A DNA stretch of 64,000 nucleotides from Diacronema lutheri. Its lineage: Eukaryota; Haptophyta; Pavlovophyceae; Pavlovales; Pavlovaceae. The stretch covers positions 62,001 through 126,000 of the forward strand of contig JAGTXO010000029.1 of assembly GCA_019448385.1 (NCBI GenBank), given 5' to 3'. Below are positions 27,004 to 38,689 of the stretch, piece by piece. The notes beneath the pieces were generated by a model, which ran no database searches, had not been told where the DNA came from, and saw only the letters and a program-made list of their open reading frames with translations. Made by a program: the position numbers and the translations under genes. The number at the start of each line of letters is the position of its first letter. The stretch's first letter is position 1.

Positions 27004-28734
27004 TCAACGTGCTGCGGCGCGCGCGTACCCGTTGGCCGGTGCGACGCGCTGCGTGCCGGGCGCGACGTTCTCCGAGCCGTAGGGCGCCGCATACGACGGC
27101 GTGCTGTACGGCCCGACTGAACGCTTGGCTGGCGCGCCGTCGCGCGCCGTGCTCGCCCTCTGCGCGTTGGACGAGAGGATCGAGTCGCGATGCATCGCAA
27201 CCGACTCCTCGTACGACTGCGGCGGCAGCTCGAGCGTCGCGCCGGCGTAGCCCGGGCGGCGCGAGGCCACGCGCGCGAGCGCGATCACCGCGCGCACGAC
27301 CGCGCCCATCTGCGAGCCGTCGTAGAGGTCCTTCGAGTGGAAGAGGTCGTGCTCGGCGACGCCGACCTCGCGCGCCGCTTCGAGAAAGGCGGCGATCGTC
27401 TCGAGCGTGCCGAACTTGCTCGTCGCCGGCTTGAGCAAGGCGGGCTGCACGGCGCCCGGCTCGATCGCGTTCGCGACGCGGCAGAGCACGATGCCGTCGC
27501 GCAGGTGCGCGTGCAGGTCGCCCGCCATCACCGAGGTGCCAGAGACGTCTGAGAGCCACTTGCGCACGCGCTTGTCCAGCATCCACTCGTTCAGTCGGCC
27601 GCCGCCGAAGCCGTCGATCTTGCGCGAGAACTCGAAGAGGTGGTGCAGGTTTGCGACAACGAGGTCAAGGTCTGCGGCCTGGTGCAGCGCGCCCGGCGGG
27701 AAGATCGCGCCCGCGGGCATGCCGAGCTCGGCGCAGCCGCGCGCGTAAGCACCGAGGTTCTCGAGCTCGTTGAACGGCGTGCGCGGCCGCGCAAACGGCA
27801 GCCGGACGACGCCGGGCTGCAGCTTGTTGAGGACGAGGCAGAGGGCGACGCCATCCTTGAGCTCGAGCACGGACGGCGGCTCGCCCAGCTCGAGCTCGGC
27901 CACCATCCCGACCCACTCGACCATCGCGTGCTCGAGCACGAGGTCGGACGAGTGCGCCGCCGCCTCGATCACCTCCGCCTGCGCGCCCGTCCCCGCGTGC
28001 AGCGCCGCCGAGACGGCGCCGCCAAAGCCGTAGCCCTTGGGCCCAAACGAGCGCGTGTGGCACGCCTTGCAATAGGGCTTCTTGTCGTGGTCGAGCTGCG
28101 AGCCGAGCGTGAGCGTCTTGGAGCACTCGATGCACTTGAAGCACTTCTTGTGCCACTCGCGCCCAAAGCAGAGCAGCCGCTCCGCCATAAAGACGCGATC
28201 GCCGCACCACGGGCATCCCGATTCATGCAACATGCCGTTCTGCGCCGGGTTGGGCTGGATCGGCGACGGCGGCTTGGGCAGCGGCGGCGGCGAGAGCATG
28301 CGCGTGATCGCGTACAACGGCGAGAGCATCTTTTGCATTGGCGTCGGCTCCTTGGCCAGGAGCGTCTGGTCCTCGCCGTCGGTCTCGACGCAGAGCACGA
28401 CGCTCTCTGGCTCTGCCGCTGGCGCCGACTGCGCGCAAATGCGGCGGCGCGGCGAACGGCGCGGGCGTAAGGCGCAGGCGACGGACGCTGGCGCGGGTCC
28501 CAGGGAGCGCGCGCCGCCACGCGCCCATTTGCGCACCTCTGGCCCGTCGTGCTCGTCTAGCATCGCCGTCGCGGGCGTGGCCGGCTCCTCGTCCATCGTC
28601 TGCGTCGAGAAGGCGGTGGTGGTCACGTGAAGCGGCGCGACGCCGTTTCGCCCGTACTGGATGATGCGCACGTCCTCCTTGAGCTGCGACAGTTGGCCCA
28701 ACTCCGCAGCGCTCTTCGATTGGCACTTGCCCAT
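27004..28734 (-). CDS. LIM domain plus two calponin-homology domains, acylated N-terminus
   Basis: Two exons (28734-28537, 28428-27004; the 108-bp intron is in frame, so a naive reading misses it). The protein (about 540 residues) begins MGKCQSKS, a myristoyl/palmitoyl signal. A single LIM zinc finger follows: CPWCGDRVFMAERLLCFG, then HKKCFKCIECSKTL and PYCKACH, as in CRP proteins. Two CH domains come next: first VEWVGMVAELELGEPPSVLE..LKDGVALCLVLNKLQPG, second NEWMLDKRVRKWLSDVSGTS..LRDGIVLCRVANAIEPG. Tandem CH domains usually bind actin filaments. The end PGYAGATLELPPQSYEESVA is Ser/Pro-rich. LIM before CH-CH is the reverse of LIMCH1/MICAL order. A membrane-tethered actin crosslinker is the likely role. 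Confidence 0.92.
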   Translation of the reverse strand: MGKCQSKSAAELGQLSQLKEDVRIIQYGRNGVAPLHVTTTAFSTQTMDEEPATPATAMLDEHDGPEVRKWARGGARSLGPAPASVACALRPRRSPRRRICAQSAPAAEPESVVLCVETDGEDQTLLAKEPTPMQKMLSPLYAITRMLSPPPLPKPPSPIQPNPAQNGMLHESGCPWCGDRVFMAERLLCFGREWHKKCFKCIECSKTLTLGSQLDHDKKPYCKACHTRSFGPKGYGFGGAVSAALHAGTGAQAEVIEAAAHSSDLVLEHAMVEWVGMVAELELGEPPSVLELKDGVALCLVLNKLQPGVVRLPFARPRTPFNELENLGAYARGCAELGMPAGAIFPPGALHQAADLDLVVANLHHLFEFSRKIDGFGGGRLNEWMLDKRVRKWLSDVSGTSVMAGDLHAHLRDGIVLCRVANAIEPGAVQPALLKPATSKFGTLETIAAFLEAAREVGVAEHDLFHSKDLYDGSQMGAVVRAVIALARVASRRPGYAGATLELPPQSYEESVAMHRDSILSSNAQRASTARDGAPAKRSVGPYSTPSYAAPYGSENVAPGTQRVAPANGYARAAAR

Positions 28735-28846: not shown

Positions 28847-31666
28847 TCAAATGTCAGGCCGCGTTTGAGCGGGTCGGCATGCGCCCGAGTTTGAGCGCGG
28901 CGAGGCGCTCTCGGGGATGCGCTCGACCGAATCGCTGGCCACAAATACGTCGGAGCCCGAGCTCAACCGTGCGGCCGTCGGCTTCGCTGGTCGCGGCGGC
29001 TGTGCTCTACTCGTGGACGGCGTCGGCGCGGCTTGCTGGCGCTGCTGCACGACGACGTCGTAGTAGAATCGCTCCTCGCTCAGCTTGACAGAGGACAGCT
29101 TGCTGAGCTTGTCCTTCACCGGCCCGTGGTCCACAAAGATCGGGTGCTCGCGCGTGTACTTCTTGGCCGCCATCCAGTCGTCGATCCGCGTCTCGCCCGC
29201 GGCCTGCAAGGTTGGGGCAGCGGGCGGGTGGGCTGGTGTGTCACGCTGTGCACGGTAAACGCCATCCGCCCCCCGCCCCTCTCTTCCTCCCCGCGCCCCC
29301 CCTCCGCTGTGCGCCGGGCCGCACCGCGCGTCGCGGCAGCGGACGAAGCGCCGCACGTTCCACTGCTCGAGGTTCATGATGCAGTTGTCGACGGCGAGCT
29401 TGCCCTTGTCCGACCGCGCAAACATCTGCCATGCCTCGTAGAGCGGCGTCACGATGATCTTGATGAAGCCACTCTGGCACTTTGAGACGGGCGTGTTGTC
29501 CCGATCCATGAACGGCGACGCGGGCAGGCCGACCGACTTCTCCATGTCGCCCTGCGCGCAGGGCGCGCGGTGGTGCACGCGCATGAGCGCGCGCGCGCGG
29601 GCGCTCCACTTCGGCGCACGGGCGCTCGACGCTGCACGCGCGACGCGGCGCGCGGCGGGCAGCGCGCGCGCTGTTGGCGTGCCTGCATGAAAAACTCCTC
29701 CATCACGCGCACGGCCCAGGGCAGGCACGCGTCGGCTGACTTTGCCGGGTTGGACACGTCGGAGCAGTGCAGCGCCATGCGCAGCACCATCTTCGTATTC
29801 TCGGGAGAGAGGCTGTCGAAGCTCTTGGACGACGCCTTCGTCGTGAACTTTGCGAGCTCGTCAAAGTGGCCGCTCATGTCCGTGCCGAGCACCATGTTGA
29901 TCATCGTGTCGCGCACGGTCGTCACGTCCGCGGGCGGCAGATTGCCAAAGACGTTGTGCTCGGGTGCGGTAAGCAGCTGCCACGCGCGCGAGATGTGCAT
30001 GTGCTCAAGCACTGATTGGTCGTTGTACAGCACCGCGACCTCGAGCCTGTTCTTCACGTGGTACAGGTTGTTAAGGCCGGGGTGGCCAAAGTCTGCCGCG
30101 CGCGCGCAACGCGCGGCGTTTCGCGCGCGTGAGGCGCGCGCGACGCTGGGCGCGCGCGCGAAGCGGGCGGCCGAGCGCCGCGCGTTGCGCGGGTGTGCGC
30201 ACCGTGCACGGCGGCCGCGAGAACGGCGGCGAAGAGATGAAGCTCGTTCACGTGCTCGGCCACCTTGTCGCAGAGTAGGAGCGTGTAGAGCGTCTGCGTC
30301 ACGTCCGTCGCGTGCAGCCGGTTGTGGTAGGGCACGGCCGCGTAGCCCGCCTGCAGGGTGTTGAGCGCCTTTGCGAGCTTGTCCGGCCGCACACGGAAGC
30401 GGTCGAAGAACTCGTGGCGGTGGCAGATGGTCATCACGAGCGGCACGAGCGGCTGCCCGGCCGTGACGCGGTGCAGCTCGAAGACGTCAAAGTCCCACTC
30501 CTCCACCTTTGCGAGCAGCGCGGCGAGCGTCGTCTCCTGCTCGGGCGCGAGCCTGTGGATGCCGTACTGGCCGCGCATCGTATCGTCCTCCTTGTTCGAC
30601 GGCGCGAGGCTGTTGCGCTTGGCGCTGTCAGACGTGCGCGTGTCCTGAGGCGCGGCGACGACGGCGTACTGCGACTTGAGCCACGCCTCCGTCTGCGTGT
30701 CCATCTTGTTGCCGCTTGACTTTGGCGAGAGCACGGCCTGATATAGCCGGTTCGAGCCGATCACGTCAATGATCCAGCGGAGGTGCACGCGGTCCGCCTC
30801 AACTTCGGCGCGCGTGGCGAGCTCCTGCAGCAGCGTAAGCACCTTGAAGACCGGCGCCTCGATGCCGCCTTCCAGCGCGCGGTACCTCATCTTCTTCATC
30901 CCGGCCTGCGTCGCGTTGAGCTTCATCAAAATGAGCACGACGCGCACAATTCGGCCGAGCCGCAGCACCGTCACGATCGACGAGCTCAAGTCGGACGACT
31001 GCGCGGCGGCGGCGGCGCGCGCGCGCGCGTGGCGTTGCAGGCGCGGCATCAGAGAATGAGCCAACGGCTGGGCAGCCCAACGCGATGAGCCGGCAGTAAA
31101 AAGGATCCGGGCCCTGCCTGCCGCCGTGAGCCCGCCAAGCACTGCGTGAGCGCGCGCGCGTGAGCGCGCACCGTGAGTTCAAGTATGATGAAACCAAAGG
31201 AGACTACGACGATCGCCGCGTCGAACACGGTGACAAAGCTGTAGTAATATTTTGCGCCGTACGCGAACGACTTGACGATCAGCTCGAGCATGAAGACGGA
31301 GAGGAACGCCGTGTCGACGTACTTCATCTGGCTCAGCGCCATCGCCTGCCACGTCTCGACCGTGCACGAGTCGATTGCAAGCGAGAAGAAGATGACGATC
31401 GAATATAGCACGACGATGACAATCGTCGTGTAGTCCACCGCGCGGATCTCAAAGACCGCCGCAACGTCGACGCGCTGCTTCTCGCCCCAGCTGAGCTCGT
31501 CGTACTGTCGCCTGCCGAACAGCTTGGCGCAGGCAATGTCTGTGCGCTTGCGAGACTCGCTCGTGTCATCGCCCTCCGACAGCTCACTCGGCGGCGACGT
31601 CGCCCCGGGCTTGACGCGCACCTCGATCGGCCCTTCTTCTTCCACCCCGACGCGTGCCACCGCCAT
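28847..31666 (-). CDS. Voltage-sensor domain fused to a cyclic-nucleotide phosphodiesterase
   Basis: Five exons (31666-31172, 30998-30203, 30092-29683, 29551-29357, 29203-28847) encode 750 residues. Residues about 79-192 form S1-S4 of a voltage sensor: S2 with FMLELIVK (Phe125, Glu128, Lys132), S3 with FDAAIVVV (Asp149), S4 LRLGRIVRVVLILMK with Arg178, Arg181 and Arg184 three apart. No pore helices follow. After a linker of about 190 residues comes a class I PDE: PYHNRLHATDV (His390, His394), AAVHDFGHPGLNNLY (His430, Asp431), YNDQSVLEHMH, HCSDVSNPAK (Asp542), and KCQSGFI with the purine-binding Gln. All metal ligands are present. Exon 3 ends at a GC donor (CAG|GCACGC). Architecture implies membrane potential controls cAMP or cGMP breakdown. 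RNF121 starts 89 bp away on the other strand. Confidence 0.93.
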
Positions 31667-31755: not shown

Positions 31756-32796
31756 ATGGCCGATATCCCGCGCGTCGGCCGCCGCGTCGCGAGCACGCAC
31801 AAGTACTACGTGCGTCGGTCGCATCGCGAGGAGACGCGAGCGCTACTCGTGCTCGTGCTTTTCGTCGTTGCGCTCGTCGGCTTCCAGGCCTTCCTCGTCA
31901 ACTGCCGCAAGCGGCACGACGCGCTCTACATCGGCGTGTCGCTCGCGGGCCTGTGGGTGATACCGGCCTTCGGCGCGACGTGGCTGATGTGGCCATGGAC
32001 GCTGCTCGTGTGGTCGGCGTTCACGCTGGTCGTCGGCCACGTCATGTTTCTGGCCACGCGCAAAGAGCTCGCGCAGACGACGCCGCGCACCGTGTACGCC
32101 TTCTTCTCGGCGGTCACGCGCTCGTGCTTTGCGCTCGGCGTCGCCGGCTACGCGCTGATGATCGTCGACTTTTTGCACATGGAGGAGCTGGTCGGGTTGC
32201 GCGGGTACGTCGCGCCGCTCGGCGGCACGCTGCTCTGCTACGGCCTCTACCTCGGCGTGCTCACGCGCGACTGCGCGTCGCTCACGTCGGAGCTGATGGC
32301 GAGCCGGATGGGCTTCAGCGCGCGCGACGAAGAGAGCCGGCGGGAGCTGGCGCCGACGGCGTGCTGCGTGTGCGGCGGCGAGCTCGTTGTTGCGGGCGCG
32401 GCGCGCGCCGGCGACGACCACGCCGCCGCGTCCAGCTCACACGACGAGCTCGCACCGCTCATCGAGCCGGCGAGCGCGCGGATCGAGAACCCTTTTGAGG
32501 GCTGCCTCGACGCCGCACAGCCCGAGCCGATCGTCACGCTCGAGTGCGGCCACCGCTACCACGAGCAATGCATCCGCGGCTGGACGCTCATCGGCAAGAA
32601 GGACACGTGTGCCTACTGCTGCGAGCGCGTCGAGCTCAAGCAGGTCTTCCCCTGGGAGCGCCACTCGCTGCTTTGGCTGCAGCTGCTTGACGCGATCCGG
32701 TACCTCATCGTGTGGAACCCGATCATAATCGTCTTCGTTGACTCCGTCTTGCCGCTCGTCGCGGGCCGCGGCGGCGGTTCGATCGGTGGGTACTGA
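31756..32796 (+). CDS. RNF121: RNF121-type membrane RING ubiquitin ligase
   Basis: This intronless protein of 346 residues follows RNF121/RNF175 along its whole length: N-terminal helices (LLVLVLFVVALVGFQAFLV), GLWVIPAFGATWL, the conserved ATRKELAQTTPRTVY loop, CYGLYLGVLTRDCASLTSEL, a RING finger (CCVCGG, LECGHRYHEQCIRGW, CAYCCERVEL) and the final PWERHSLLWLQLLDAIRYLI..WNP. RNF121 is an ER/Golgi E3 ligase linked in animals to quality control and surface delivery of voltage-gated channels (zebrafish sodium channels). Here it sits between a voltage-sensor enzyme and a Ca channel, which is suggestive. An acidic insert separates the two halves of the RING. Confidence 0.95.
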   Translation: MADIPRVGRRVASTHKYYVRRSHREETRALLVLVLFVVALVGFQAFLVNCRKRHDALYIGVSLAGLWVIPAFGATWLMWPWTLLVWSAFTLVVGHVMFLATRKELAQTTPRTVYAFFSAVTRSCFALGVAGYALMIVDFLHMEELVGLRGYVAPLGGTLLCYGLYLGVLTRDCASLTSELMASRMGFSARDEESRRELAPTACCVCGGELVVAGAARAGDDHAAASSSHDELAPLIEPASARIENPFEGCLDAAQPEPIVTLECGHRYHEQCIRGWTLIGKKDTCAYCCERVELKQVFPWERHSLLWLQLLDAIRYLIVWNPIIIVFVDSVLPLVAGRGGGSIGGY

Positions 32797-32878: not shown

Positions 32879-35800
32879 TCAAGCCGGTAGTACCTGCGCT
32901 GGCTTGACACCGGGCGATTTCGCGCCGTACTGCAGCACGGCTCGCGACCGCTGGTGCAACTCCGAGCCCGACGCCGCCGCAGAGGCCCCGGCCAAGGCCG
33001 CGGCCGATGCTTTCAAGACGCCGCCGCACCGTATTCTCTCGCCCTCGTCGGTGCCGGCGTGCGCCGGCTCGTCCTGCGCCGGCTCGTCCTGCGCCCTCTG
33101 CGTCGCCACAAAGTTGCGGTACCTGCGCGCCGCGAGGCGACGCGCGCCGAGGAGGACAGGGCGCATGCTAAGGGCGCACGGACGCCAACCCGGTAACGGC
33201 ACGTGCCGTGCCCTCGCCCTCCGCCCCACGGCGCGCGCACCGGTGCTGCAGAAGCGAGACGAGGTAGGACGTCATCGCGCTGTGCTCGGCCGCGTCGCCG
33301 CCGCGCACCGCGGCCGCCCGGCTGTTCGAGACCTTGTCCGCTTCTCGCGCCTGCGCAGAGACGGCCGCGGCGGCGTGGCGAGCGGTGAGCGACGCGCGCG
33401 CACGCCGAGCGGGTCGCTCCGCGGCTGGGCGGCCGAGCGGCGCGCGCGCACAATCTTGCGCGTCTCATCGCACAGCGGGAGGGGCACGCCGACGTGCGAA
33501 TTGACGATGGCGGTCATCGTCTCCATAAAGTGGATCTCGCCATCGTGGTCGGGCACGTCGATGCGTTGCAGCCGCTTGAGGAGCTGCGCCCTGCTCGCCG
33601 CCGGCTTCATCCCGCCGAGCCCGAGGGGCGCGCTCAGCTGCGCGAGGATGGGCAGCAGCTGGAACGACTTGATCGTGAACGTGCCCTTCGGGTCGTAGCG
33701 CATCCAGATGTCGCGAAACTCCTGCGCGCGCGCAAAGCCGCCGGCGGCGGCGGCGGATCGGTTGAGCGCGCGCCGCCGGCGGGCGCGCGGCGAAGGCGGC
33801 GCGCGGGCGCGCGCGCGCCTCGAGCTGCTCGACGGTGATTGGCTTGCTCTCTGAGCCGATGGCCGAGAAGTTCTCGAGGATGACGCCGATGACGAGGTTG
33901 AGAAGGATGGCCTGGCCGAGGATCCAGTAGGACAAGAAGTAGAGCGCGGCGATCGTCGTCGAGCCGCACGCGCCCGCGCTCGCGTCGGTGCAACGCGCCG
34001 CGTTGTCCGCCCAATCGGCGCCCATCGCGTCGTGCATGAGGCAATTCCAGCTCTCGCCGGTGGAGCACCGGAAGAGCGTGAGCAGCGAGACCCAGAAGCC
34101 GCGAAAGTTTGCGTGCCGCGTGAGGCACTCGCCAAACGGCACGTCCGCGAAGAGGAAGACGCCCGCGATGGCGTAGATGTACATGACGAGGCCGAGAAGC
34201 AGCCCGACGTTCTGCAGCGCGGGCAGCGAGCTCCACAGCGTGACGAGCAGCGTGCGCAGCCCTTTGGCCGTCTTGACGACGCGCAGCAGCCGCACGACGC
34301 GGAACATGCGCAGCACGCGCAAGGTGTTCGGGTTGATCGGCAGCACGAGCGCGCCGCCCGCGAGCTCGAGCGTCAGGTCGACGACGGACAGTACGACGAG
34401 CAGCGCGTCGAAGGCGTTCCACCCGTTCGTGATGTACTGCCGGCCGCCGAGCGCGGTGAGCTTGAGCATCATCTCGGCGCAGAAGACGAGCGCGAACGCG
34501 TAGCTGAGCGCCTGCACGCCGAGCGAGTAGCCGCGCGGCGAGTCGTGCCACTCGAGCATCATCACGACCGCGTTGGCGACGATCGCGCACATGATGCCCA
34601 GCTCGAAGGCGCTCGACTGCACCAGCCGGAACGCGCGCTGCCGCGCGGGCAGGCGCGACGGGCACGTGAACTGGCGGATCGGCCGCATCGCGTACACGGC
34701 GCGCTGCGCCTCCATCCAATCGCGCTGGCTCGCCGTCATGAAGGCGGTGCCGTCCGCGCGCTTGCGCAGCGTGTTGAACGTGTCAAGCACGACGCCGACG
34801 AACATGTTCCACACGAGGAAGGCGCCGGCGAAGATCCACACGATGAAGAAGAGCGCGAAGAGCACCCGCGGCGACCTGTCGTCGCGCAGCGGTGCGCGGT
34901 CGATGTCGGTCGCGTAGATCGCGCGGAACATGACGGACGGCCAGCCCTCGAGCCCGACCATCTCGAGGAGCACGAGGACGCCGACGCCGACGTGATCAAA
35001 GTTGCCGAACGGCGGGTTCACCCAACGGCCGCCCGCGGCGAGGCACTCGGCGCGGCTGGGGGACATTCCGTCGGTGCACTCGTAGAACTTGCCCTTGAAG
35101 AGCTGCACGCCGACGATCGCAAAGACGAGCACGAACATGCCCATCAGCAGCGACACGTTGGCGCACTGCGGCACGGCCATGAAGAGCGACGTGACCACCT
35201 TCTTCATGCCCGCGACCCGGTTCGCCATGCGCAGCGGCCGGAGCGCGCGCACGACGCGCAACGCCTTGAGCCACGAGAGGCGCGTGCTCACGTCGCCTCC
35301 CGACTCCTCGAGCGCGAGCAAGACGACGGAGATGGAGACGATAGCAAAGTCGAGCACGTTCCACGCCGAACGCAGGTACGCACTTCCTGCCGGCCAGACG
35401 AAGCCAAGCGCGACCACCTTGACGAGCATCTCGACAGCGAATGCGAGCGTGAAGATCCAGTTGAGCACGCGCAGCACGTCGGTCGTGAGCGCCGTCTGGC
35501 TCGGCGTGTCGTACGCGAGCGAGATGGACGAGGCGCAGATGAGCACGAGCACGGCGCGATCAAAGTGGCCGCCCGACAGCAAACGCACGCACGCGCGCCG
35601 GACCGGGTGGCTGCGCGAGAAGAGGGCAAGAGAGCGGTCGGGCCGCACGTCGGGCTCAGTCGTGCCGCCGAGCGACACGCCGCGCGGGTTGGCCGCGGGC
35701 GAGAGCGCGGGCAAGCCCTTGCGCACGGCGACCGGGTCGTCGGCGCCACCGCCGCACCCGGCCGCTGCCGCCGCTGCTGCCGCCGCCGCCATTGTTGTTG

Positions 35801-38186
35801 CGCCGGCGGTGCCGAGGGGGCCAAGGCCGACGCCGAGGCCGCTCACCGTGGTGCGCGTCGACGACCTGTTCGCGCGTTGGAAGAGGAGTTGCGAGATGGA
35901 CTGCACGCCCTCGGGCAGCGCGTTGGCGCCCGCAAAGGGGCGCGAGTGCAGCTCGGCGAGGATGGCTCGCGAGCCGGCGCCATCGTGAATCCGCTGCGCG
36001 TGCTCGTCGTCGACGTGCACGAGCGTGCCGAAGGCGAAGACGATCTTGCCCGTCCCCTCGACGCGGCTCGCCTTCTCCGCGTCGCTCAGCGCCTGCGCAT
36101 CGTCGTCCAAGTCGATCTGCCGCAGGATGATCGCGACGAAGAGGTTGAAGACGACGTAGTTGCCCAAGATGAAGAGCGACAAGAAGTAGAGCGTCGCCAG
36201 CTCGCGCGACGCCGCGTTCTGGTAGAGCGTCTCGAGCCCGTGCGCCGTGTCAAAGTAGACCTCGTTCCAGTTCTCGCCCGAGATCACGATGAAGATTGAG
36301 ATGCACGCCATCGCGAGCGAGTCAAAGTTTGCGGACGGGACGCCGTCGCCGTCGAAGCGCGGGTTGCGCCCGCGCGGCGGCTGCGTGTAGATGCCGCCGA
36401 AGAGCTCAATGCCGAGGAGCGCGTAGACGATCACGAGGAGGAGGAGAAGCAGCGCGAGGGAGGAGACCTCGCGCAGCGAGCCGACGAGCGCGCGCATCAG
36501 GCGGTTGAGCCCGTCGAGGGATCGGACGAGTTTGAGCACGCGCACGAGGCGCAACAGCCTGAAGGTGCGCAGCACGGCCAGGTTGACGAAGGACGCGCCG
36601 GTGAAGTCGAGCGCCACCTCGAGCAGCGAGAGGAGCACGACGGCCGCGTCGAAGCGGTTGAAGGCGTCGCGCATCGCGTTGCGCGCCCCCATCGCGAGCA
36701 GCTTTGCGAGCAGCTCGAGGCTGAAGACGACGGTGAGCGCGTAGTTGAGCGAGGCGAGGATGAGCTCCTCCTCGACGGGCTGGCCGTAGTACTCGCAGCA
36801 CATGAGCAGCGTGTTGAGCATGATCGCGCCGTGGATGCCATGTCGGAAGGGCGCGGCCGAGACGAGCGCGTAGCACCGGCGCTGCAGCCATGGCCGGCCG
36901 GCCATGTCGAGGTCCATGATGCCGTCGCCGTCCTCGTCCGCGTACCGCTCCTCCGCCTCGGCGGCCGCCGGAGCGCCGTGCGCGCGGTCGCTCTCGCGGT
37001 TGAACGCGTCGGTGAGGACGGCGAGGAAGAGCTGCACAACGAGGAAGGCGCCGAAGGCGACGACGAGCACAAAGTAGGCCCACGTGTACAGGTGCGCGCC
37101 GTCCTGCGCAAAGTACATGTTGTCCACCCAGCCCTCGAGCGTGATCGACTGGAAGATCGTGATGAACGCCGCCCACGTGTGGTCGAAATGCGTGATCCCA
37201 AAGTTTGGGTTGTCCGACTCGACGCACGACGAGCGAGCGCCGCGCGCGCCGCCGCGCGTCAGCTGCGGCACCAGCCCGGACGCGCCGCAGCGGCACTCAG
37301 CGGGCGGCGGGCACTGGTACGTGAGCGGGTCGCCAAACGGATTGCACACGTCGCCCGTGCTCGCCCAGGCGCCGCCGTCGTCCGGCGCCCAGCATTGGTG
37401 GCGCAGCTGGCCGTTGAAGAGCTGCACGCCGAGCACGCCGAAGATGAGCAGGAAGAAGAGGAGAACGCCCACCACGTTGCCCAGTTGCGGGAGCGAACCG
37501 AGGAGCGAGCCGATGAGCTCGTGCATCCCCGGCAGCTGCGTCAGCGTGCGCAGCGGCCGCAGCACGCGCACCGCGCGCAGCGACGTGAGGACGCTCGCGC
37601 TGCTGCCGCCGCCGCCCCACGTGCTCGCGAGGTCAACCCAGCCCGACACGACGCAGGTGAAGTCGACCCAGTTCCACTTGTCGCGGAGGTAGGCGTTGCG
37701 GTGGAGGACGAAGCCCATCGCCAGCACCTTGACGATCATCTCGAGCGTGAAGAGCGGCACGAGCACCGAGTTGAAGACGAGGTAGGCGCGCTGCCGATCG
37801 GCGTACGCCGCGCTCGTCGTGTCGAGGAGCGGATCGACGGTCGCCATCTGCAGGCAGCTCGCCAGGATGGCGGCCATTGCGGCGCGGTCGAACATCGGGT
37901 GGCGGATCATCCGGATGCACACGAGCCGCAGCGGGTTGTCCGGCGCCAGGCAGAAGAGCGCGCGCTGCAACTCGTACCGCCCGTCAATCTGCTCGGCGTT
38001 GAGCATCTCGCCGAGCAGGTTCTCGGCGGCCGTGCGGCTGCCGCGCCGGCTCTCGCGCGTGGACGTGCCGCGGCTCAGCGCTACGGACGGCCTCTCATCG
38101 CCCGTCTCGCCCACCGGCTCATTGAGCGCAGGCGCATGGCTCGGGTCGCCCTCCGGAGCCTGCTCATCCTTGCGCGCGTCCGCCAT
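32879..38186 (-). CDS. Four-domain voltage-gated calcium channel alpha-1-like subunit
   Basis: Four exons (38186-33819, 33721-33452, 33350-33241, 33122-32879) encode about 1,663 residues with four S1-S6 repeats. S4 helices are Arg-rich in each (LRAVRVLRPLRTL, LRTFRLLRLVRVLKLV, LKALRVVRALRPLR, LRVLRMFRVVRLLRVVK). The filter residues are Glu in all four: TLEGW (Glu351), SGENW (Glu638), GLEGW (Glu1080), TGESW (Glu1378), the EEEE ring of Ca-selective Cav channels. The C-terminus has the Cav EF-hand/GPHH region (EFRDIWMRYDPKGTF, APLGLGGMKP) and SYLVSLLQHRYRNF where Cav channels carry the calmodulin-binding IQ motif. The first intron has a GC donor (GAG|GCGCGC); no GT lies nearby. The ATG at 38186 is preferred; an open frame extends to 38462 but is Arg-rich and unlike the channel. 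Confidence 0.95.
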
Positions 38187-38689
38187 CCGCGCGGTGCACG
38201 AGCGCGCGGGCGGCGGCGCGGACGCGCCCGCGCCGTCGGCTTCCCACACCTGCGCGGACGCGAGGGGAAGCGGGCGGCGAAGAGCGCACGCACAGCGGCC
38301 GCGGTCCGAGGCCATCAGCCGACCTGCGCTCTCGCGCCGAGATGCACGGCGCGACGCGCGCGCGCATCGGTGCGCCGCGCGTTGCGCGCCACACGCCATG
38401 GCGCGCAGCGCGGCGCAAGGGCGGCTCGTCCGGAGGAGCCGCAAAGCGCACCTCGGTGACACGCAGCGGTAACTTGCTCGAGCTACCCGCGCGCAACGTC
38501 GGCGTAGCGCTGGCCGGCCGGTGCCAGCCTAGCGCTCCGGTCCAACGCCCAGGCGACGAAGTGCGGACCCCTCGCCACCGCTGGCCTCAAGTCGTTACCA
38601 CTTGTTTGAGCGAAAATCGTGGTATCATAGGGTTATATAAAAGAGCGGACTGCCTTGCCTCGCCGTGGTGCTCCACCGTTGGGGTGGCG
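38187..38689. promoter_or_regulatory. 503-bp divergent region of the Ca channel and ARM/IQ genes
   Basis: The right part is AT-richer and holds TTTGAGCG at 38605-38612 and a TATA box just before the ARM/IQ gene. The left part stays open in the channel frame but looks non-native. Confidence 0.5.
38634..38643 (+). promoter_or_regulatory. TATA box
   Basis: TATATAAAAG is a canonical TATA element 46 bp upstream of the ATG at 38690. It is the clearest core promoter element I found in the window. Confidence 0.6.

Follow-up and report, generated by a model that had tools for sequence, protein, structure and literature searches.

The question raised by this locus of the haptophyte Diacronema lutheri is whether a single protein could couple the membrane potential directly to the breakdown of cyclic nucleotides. 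The window, a 64,000-nucleotide stretch of contig JAGTXO010000029.1, contains on its minus strand (31666-28847) a gene in which a voltage-sensor domain (VSD) is followed by a class I phosphodiesterase (PDE). The organization of the gene, the residues of both domains, the relatives of the protein and its probable mode of action are considered here in turn.

Gene structure

The gene is composed of five exons, all on the minus strand, and encodes 750 amino acids (750 codons). Both an Ion_trans and a PDEase_I domain are found in this model, in agreement with the first-pass annotation, which had proposed a single spliced frame for a VSD and a class I PDE. Exon 1 (31172-31666, with the start codon at 31666) encodes the N-terminal tail and S1-S3 (residues 1-165). 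It is followed by intron 1 (30999-31171, GT-AG, 173 nt), which separates S3 from S4, and by exon 2 (30203-30998), which carries the S4 helix, the linker and the N-terminal half of the PDE in a single uninterrupted frame. Intron 2 (30093-30202, GT-AG, 110 nt) interrupts the H|D metal motif. Exon 3 (29683-30092) encodes the central part of the PDE domain, from DFGHPG to FFMQ, and exon 4 (29357-29551) its end, with the purine-binding Q593; between them lies intron 3 (29552-29682, 131 nt), which has GC-AG borders. Intron 4 (29204-29356, GT-AG, 153 nt) precedes exon 5 (28847-29203), which carries the C-terminal tail and the stop codon. Intron 4 might be retained, as its length is a multiple of 3 and it is open in the frame of the exons. 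The GC content at codon positions 1, 2 and 3 (0.605, 0.414 and 0.877) fits coding sequence.

The junction between the sensor exons had been placed at 31172/30998, and two kinds of evidence agree with this position. Intron 1 is not readable through, because its length of 173 nt is no multiple of 3 and a stop is present in the frame of exon 1. In addition, a family VSD profile, which includes the D. lutheri protein itself, matched the frame of exon 1 at positions 1-96 and that of exon 2 at positions 95-202, so that the two matches adjoin at the junction to within a few residues. A profile built without the D. lutheri protein gave 70 bits in the frame of exon 1 (positions 1-92) and 117 bits in that of exon 2 (91-197). 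The 5' end of the gene is closed by an in-frame stop in the frame of exon 1, nine codons ahead of the ATG, and by a divergent gene 89 bp away.

Voltage-sensor domain

The Pfam Ion_trans profile matches residues 81-193 of the protein with 33.4 bits, and this match spans only profile positions 7-113 of 241, corresponding to the S1-S4 half. Ion_trans and PDEase_I were the only domains detected in the Pfam scan up to an E-value of 1. The four helices are located at 31367-31435 (S1, about residues 78-100, with a hydropathy peak of 2.63 at residue 80), 31253-31318 (S2, about residues 117-138), 31175-31237 (S3, about residues 144-164) and 30918-30980 (S4, about residues 172-192). S2 contains the pattern Fxx[ED]xxx[RK] as F125, E128 and K132, and the acidic residue of S3 is D149. 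Along S4, three charges are regularly spaced (R178, R181 and R184), L187 occupies the +9 position, and no further basic residue occurs until K191 at +13. An S1-S4 sensor with the S2 Phe/Glu/Lys motif, an S3 Asp and an Arg at every third residue of S4 had been claimed; its S2 and S3 parts stand, and the arginine repeat has to be reduced to three residues.

No S5-P-S6 pore follows S4, since the Ion_trans match ends at profile position 113 of 241 and no later hydrophobic segment exists. The hydropathy profile has four peaks above 1.5, the last ending by residue 190. The absence of S5-S6 helices noted earlier is thus confirmed by the extent of the Pfam match and by hydropathy, and a full voltage-gated channel is ruled out by the missing pore. 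In all 14 proteins tested, no 19-residue stretch above 1.33 (Kyte-Doolittle) was found from the linker start to the PDE motif, and none of them has a hydropathy peak above 1.5 after S4.

By sequence search, the D. lutheri VSD resembles those of Cav, Nav, Hv1 and voltage-sensing phosphatases (VSPs). The match to Cav reached 3.8e-10 for the whole chain, with four repeats summed, and 0.00079 for the best single repeat. The entry 3wkv, a chain with a single sensor that bears the deposited name 'Ion channel' and that we take to be an Hv1 construct, matched at 4.3e-8, Hv1 at 1.5e-5 and Ci-VSP at 0.0022. For the VSD of the homologue P0004, T-type calcium-channel chains were matched with a whole-chain E-value of 1e-26, in which four repeats are summed (5.4e-8 for the best of them alone), and the human VSP homologue TPTE2 with 1.4e-6.

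Phosphodiesterase domain

The PDEase_I profile matches residues 389-612 with 261.2 bits, against a cut-off of 24.8. The class I catalytic region extends over residues 330-632 (29357-30506, with introns 2 and 3 inside). In class I PDEs, the HNxxH, HD and D residues bind the metals and a Gln binds the purine. Alignment with PDE1B and PDE4D places H390, H394, H430, D431, D542 and Q593 at these sites, so that every metal ligand and the Gln listed in the first-pass annotation are recovered. The nearest structures by sequence are PDE1B (2.6e-60) and PDE4D (4.6e-59). N545 aligns with the Asn of the SNP motif of PDE4D, and C553 aligns with a Tyr of PDE4D. The encoded enzyme is predicted to hydrolyse cAMP or cGMP.

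Homologues and conservation

Three protein searches, the first of which was restricted to the 8000 candidates with the most words in common, yielded at least 36 distinct homologues. Both Ion_trans and PDEase_I are recognised by Pfam in ten of these 36 (P0001, P0004, P0005, P0006, P0015, P0023, P0026, P0028, P0029 and P0030), and in P0002 and P0003 the alignment reveals S1-S4 and PDE in one open frame. The domain order, VSD then PDE, is the same in these 12 homologues. Of the remaining 24, 12 are family fragments and the other 12 are PDEs in which no VSD was recognised; the latter include PDE3B of a bird and a fungal protein, from Paraphysoderma. When 24 of the 36 were scanned with Pfam, PDEase_I was detected in all 24 and Ion_trans in 11. 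Absence of the fusion from every related genome had been proposed as a refuting condition; this is answered by the 12 homologues, in which the same fusion occurs in sequences of other organisms. Judged from these sequences, the VSD-PDE fusion is a conserved family that is also present in environmental DNA.

P0001 is 58% identical over 93%; its frame of 631 aa, which starts inside S1, is free of introns and lies on a contig of 2,065 bases. It runs unbroken through the places of the D. lutheri introns, and its contig is probably a spliced message. The frame of P0002 enters extra sequence at the intron 2 and intron 3 sites and that of P0003 at the intron 3 site, as expected of genomic contigs; between S3 and S4 both frames are continuous. 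The frames of P0001 and of P0002/P0003 point only indirectly to a transcript shared by VSD and PDE. When the VSD and linker (residues 72-280) were used as query, only P0001 was found at E 0.01 among 857 candidates; the protein's own branch, to which P0002 and P0003 belong, is therefore thinly sampled.

Conserved residues were counted in 21 aligned rows (D. lutheri and 20 homologues), which are related, so that the counts are not independent. The S2 Phe is present in 17 of the 17 rows with a letter there, the S3 acid in 18 of 18 and the S2 acid in 17 of 18, the one deviating row being the truncated P0023. The family S2 motif, F-x2-[E/D]-x3-K, is nearly invariant across the rows; an S2 pattern of this kind served to find voltage sensors in work described in part of PMC4878010. 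The first S4 charge is a Lys in 15 rows, an Arg in five and a Gln in one, while the second Arg is found in 21/21 rows and the third in 20/21. The +9 position is hydrophobic in all 21 rows. The usual S4 pattern can be written as [R/K]xxRxxRxx[L/V/M]xxx[K/R], with three regular charges and then a basic residue at +13. P0003 has a Leu at the third S4 charge, and P0002 has an Asp at the S2 acid and a Glu at the S3 acid.

In a tree of the linker and PDE (17 rows), the 13 rows labelled VSD-PDE are placed on one side and the four others on the opposite side, with a support of 84/89, which is below the starred level. This grouping makes a single fusion event plausible for the family. P0007 and P0032 are labelled VSD in the tree, with only the S4 end present in them. 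The PDE-only tree (29 rows) does not resolve a single origin, with six label changes; as its 'no VSD' label wrongly includes five truncated family members, this label count is set aside. Compared with this 29-row set, the 17-row tree omits five D. lutheri paralogues, P0009, P0010, P0012, P0013, P0018, P0024, P0035 and P0036; both trees are without P0015, P0017, P0019-P0023, P0025, P0027, P0031, P0033 and P0034.

Some members of the set have unusual architectures. P0027 and P0031 are identical at 171 of 172 residues from RLQRSRERYRRMKM (S4 end) onward, and only 58 of 155 aligned columns match in their VSD parts; an exchange of sensor cassettes, the use of alternative 5' exons or a chimeric assembly may account for this difference. 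P0011 (EukProt) has HNOBA and PH domains, which are unusual input domains, joined to a PDE through a similar linker. A scan of viral contigs gave 17 pattern matches, none of which was confirmed as a relative.

Linker and structure models

The two domains are connected by a conserved linker (30669-30857, minus strand, residues 213-275) with the pattern APVxKV...WL. This linker may predate the VSD, because a looser form of it is found in P0008 and P0011, both without Pfam Ion_trans.

In AlphaFold2 models of the homologues P0028 (mean pLDDT 74.1) and P0001 (77.4; S1 cut short), helices at S1-S4 are followed, after a short interruption, by a pair of linker helices and, beyond a stretch of low confidence, by the PDE fold. 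The PDE is mostly modelled with a pLDDT above 85. The S4 helix is 30 or 39 residues long, and its last part is of low confidence, with a pLDDT below 50 at residues 206-214 of P0028 and 124-135 of P0001. Values below 50 are also found from the linker helices to the PDE (P0028 251-271 and 275-337; P0001 171-187 and 198-232). These low-confidence stretches, in the region of coupling, argue for a lid or tether over a rigid rod.

In Foldseek comparisons, the models had a TM-score of about 0.9 by target length with most PDE4 chains among the matches listed. The best 50 of 567 and the best 50 of 655 matches were all PDEs, and are therefore uninformative about the VSD. Among the listed matches, the PDE half was aligned with long-form PDE4B, including its regulatory region, over 447-475 alignment columns with an rmsd of 12.8-14.4. 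This match is no more than a hint of a possible UCR-type lid function of the linker.

Genomic context

The D. lutheri genome has at least 12 PDE loci, obtained by grouping the 22 matches of a six-frame search. In six-frame searches, only one of the 12, the VSD-PDE gene, has an Ion_trans match within 10 kb; a VSD-PDE expansion in this genome is rejected on this basis. The family VSD profile, which detects both D. lutheri VSD exons, gave a best E-value of 0.78 in the other 11 loci (6-8 kb each, open frames of at least 25 aa). Guanylate_cyc has at least four strong and two weak matches in the genome, all of them more than 40 kb from any Ion_trans match listed, so in D. lutheri the sensor sits on the breakdown side. 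Cyclic-nucleotide (cNMP)-binding domains account for 115 matches.

The gene is bordered upstream by a RING-finger gene, which starts at 31756 (plus strand), 89 bp from the VSD-PDE start codon and head to head with it; a shared promoter is possible. Past this gene, about 1.8 kb beyond the VSD-PDE start codon, lies a four-repeat channel (33468-38528, minus strand), a single frame of 1687 aa with four Ion_trans stretches (713 bits). Its filter motifs, TLEGW, SGENW, GLEGW and TGESW, form an EEEE filter, as in calcium channels. The next gene downstream (27004-28734, minus strand) encodes a LIM and CH-domain protein with two CH stretches.

Proposed mechanism

We consider the protein to be, quite probably, a membrane-bound, voltage-controlled class I cyclic-nucleotide phosphodiesterase. 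A change in membrane potential would move S4, with R178, R181 and R184, through a charge-transfer centre provided by S1-S3 (F125, E128 and K132 of S2; D149 of S3). S4 would continue out of the membrane into the conserved helical linker. The linker would then alter the position, the lid or the oligomer (dimer) contacts of the PDE, presumably located in the cytosol, and thereby change its activity or the access to its active site. By analogy with the voltage-sensing phosphatases, depolarisation is assumed to activate the PDE, which would result in local breakdown of cAMP (or cGMP). The case for voltage control is weakened by the presence of only three regular S4 charges with a hydrophobic +9 position, by the low confidence of the models where coupling must happen, and by the deviations of P0003 and P0002 at the S4, S2 and S3 sites.

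The same features could belong to a VSD that is no longer voltage-responsive and serves as a membrane anchor or targeting module for a constitutive PDE. The short series of S4 charges and the low-confidence stretch between linker and PDE would suit such a protein, as would P0008, a related PDE in which, judged by eye, other hydrophobic segments replace the VSD. However, proteins down to about 30% identical to that of D. lutheri retain the S2 F/E/K residues, the S3 acid and the arginines at the second and third S4 charges, which counts against this explanation, as a mere anchor could do without them; we regard it as unlikely.

It is improbable that the VSD docks onto another channel, for instance the nearby four-repeat calcium-type one, and delivers the PDE to it, the channel itself sensing the voltage. 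The EEEE-type gene about 1.8 kb away could supply the partner, but physical proximity says little in so compact a genome. A slightly lower probability still is given to a VSD that conducts protons or cations itself in the manner of Hv1, with the PDE as regulator or passenger. Hv1 needs an Asp in the middle of S1 as its selectivity filter, and mid-S1 of the D. lutheri protein has no acidic residue, which may speak against conduction. In P0031, P0033 and P0034, the outer half of S1 contains a Glu. The similarity of the D. lutheri VSD to Hv1 is in favour of conduction, as is the description of Hv1 in part of PMC10651576 as a conducting VSD without a pore domain. Finally, although the gene model is inferred from sequence, the artefactual joining of two separate genes is highly improbable and is rejected, given the common exon of S4 and PDE, the closed 5' end and the identical domain order in 12 homologues; fusion of VSD and PDE in one gene is close to certain.

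Relation to known systems

For the voltage-controlled phosphodiesterase proposed here, no VSD-PDE was found in the open-licence PMC papers searched; the first-pass annotation likewise knew of no well-described one. According to its legend, a figure of a 2023 review (PMC10651576) shows all proteins reported with a VSD. Section 4 of this review covers channels, sNHE, a pore-bearing cyclase, Ci-VSP and Hv1, and no PDE, and the word 'phosphodiesterase' occurs zero times in its main text.

Like Ci-VSP and TPTE2, the D. lutheri protein has one pore-less S1-S4 VSD on the N-terminal side of a cytosolic hydrolase. This is the layout of voltage-sensing phosphatases, in which the VSD is followed by a cytosolic phosphatase. 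Their catalytic domain is a PTEN-like lipid phosphatase, whereas that of D. lutheri is a class I cyclic-nucleotide PDE; membership in the VSPs is rejected, since the PTEN-like domain is absent (Pfam, only Ion_trans and PDEase_I up to E 1). The S4 of Ci-VSP carries R223, R226, R229 and R232, as given in a section of PMC13095418, compared with three regular charges in D. lutheri.

The nearest reported systems are the VSD-cyclases of Stramenopiles and Alveolates, such as Phytophthora PPTG_13136 and PPTG_13761, which in the account of PMC12223298 also combine a pore-less Ion_trans VSD with a cyclic-nucleotide enzyme. They are the enzymatic opposite of the VSD-PDE: both functions are predicted, and the Guanylate_cyc domain would make the cyclic nucleotide that the VSD-PDE would destroy. 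The D. lutheri protein is not one of them, as Pfam finds no Guanylate_cyc domain in it. In the same account, the VSD-cyclases come from flagellated or ciliated organisms, a trait in which D. lutheri is likened to them, and one oomycete/alveolate VSD-cyclase was located mainly in the zoospore flagellum (PMC12223298).

The ciliate/apicomplexan adenylyl cyclase (Weber 2004, as cited in a section of PMC10651576) also joins a voltage sensor and cyclic-nucleotide metabolism in one chain, but has a K channel pore and a cyclase. The sperm Na/H exchanger SLC9C1, as presented in part of PMC13095418, has a VSD in a non-channel protein with a link to cAMP; it is a transporter with a cAMP-binding domain and without a PDE. 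In four Euplotes groups, PDEase_I and Ion_trans genes are always adjacent, according to a passage of PMC8670190 that does not state their fusion status. Class I PDEs such as PDE1 and PDE4 share the catalytic domain of the D. lutheri protein and, unlike it, are without a VSD. PDE1 and PDE4 are regulated by CaM or UCR modules. Rhodopsin-phosphodiesterase is likewise a sensory membrane domain fused to a PDE, but rhodopsin senses light and the VSD would sense voltage.

On balance, the VSD-PDEs would constitute a further class of voltage-controlled enzyme, through which unicellular algae and their relatives would place the breakdown of cyclic nucleotides under direct control of the membrane potential. 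If this is true, a hydrolase would end, rather than start, a second-messenger signal upon a voltage change. As the counterpart of the protist VSD-cyclases, it would allow an excitable cell to translate an electrical event into a drop of its cAMP or cGMP level by means of one protein. With a conserved VSD-PDE, the coupling of electrical signals to cAMP in algae could be tested on a single protein, which is also a possible tool for the electrically controlled breakdown of cAMP or cGMP. In these cells, a chemical signal may be shut down directly by the electrical state.
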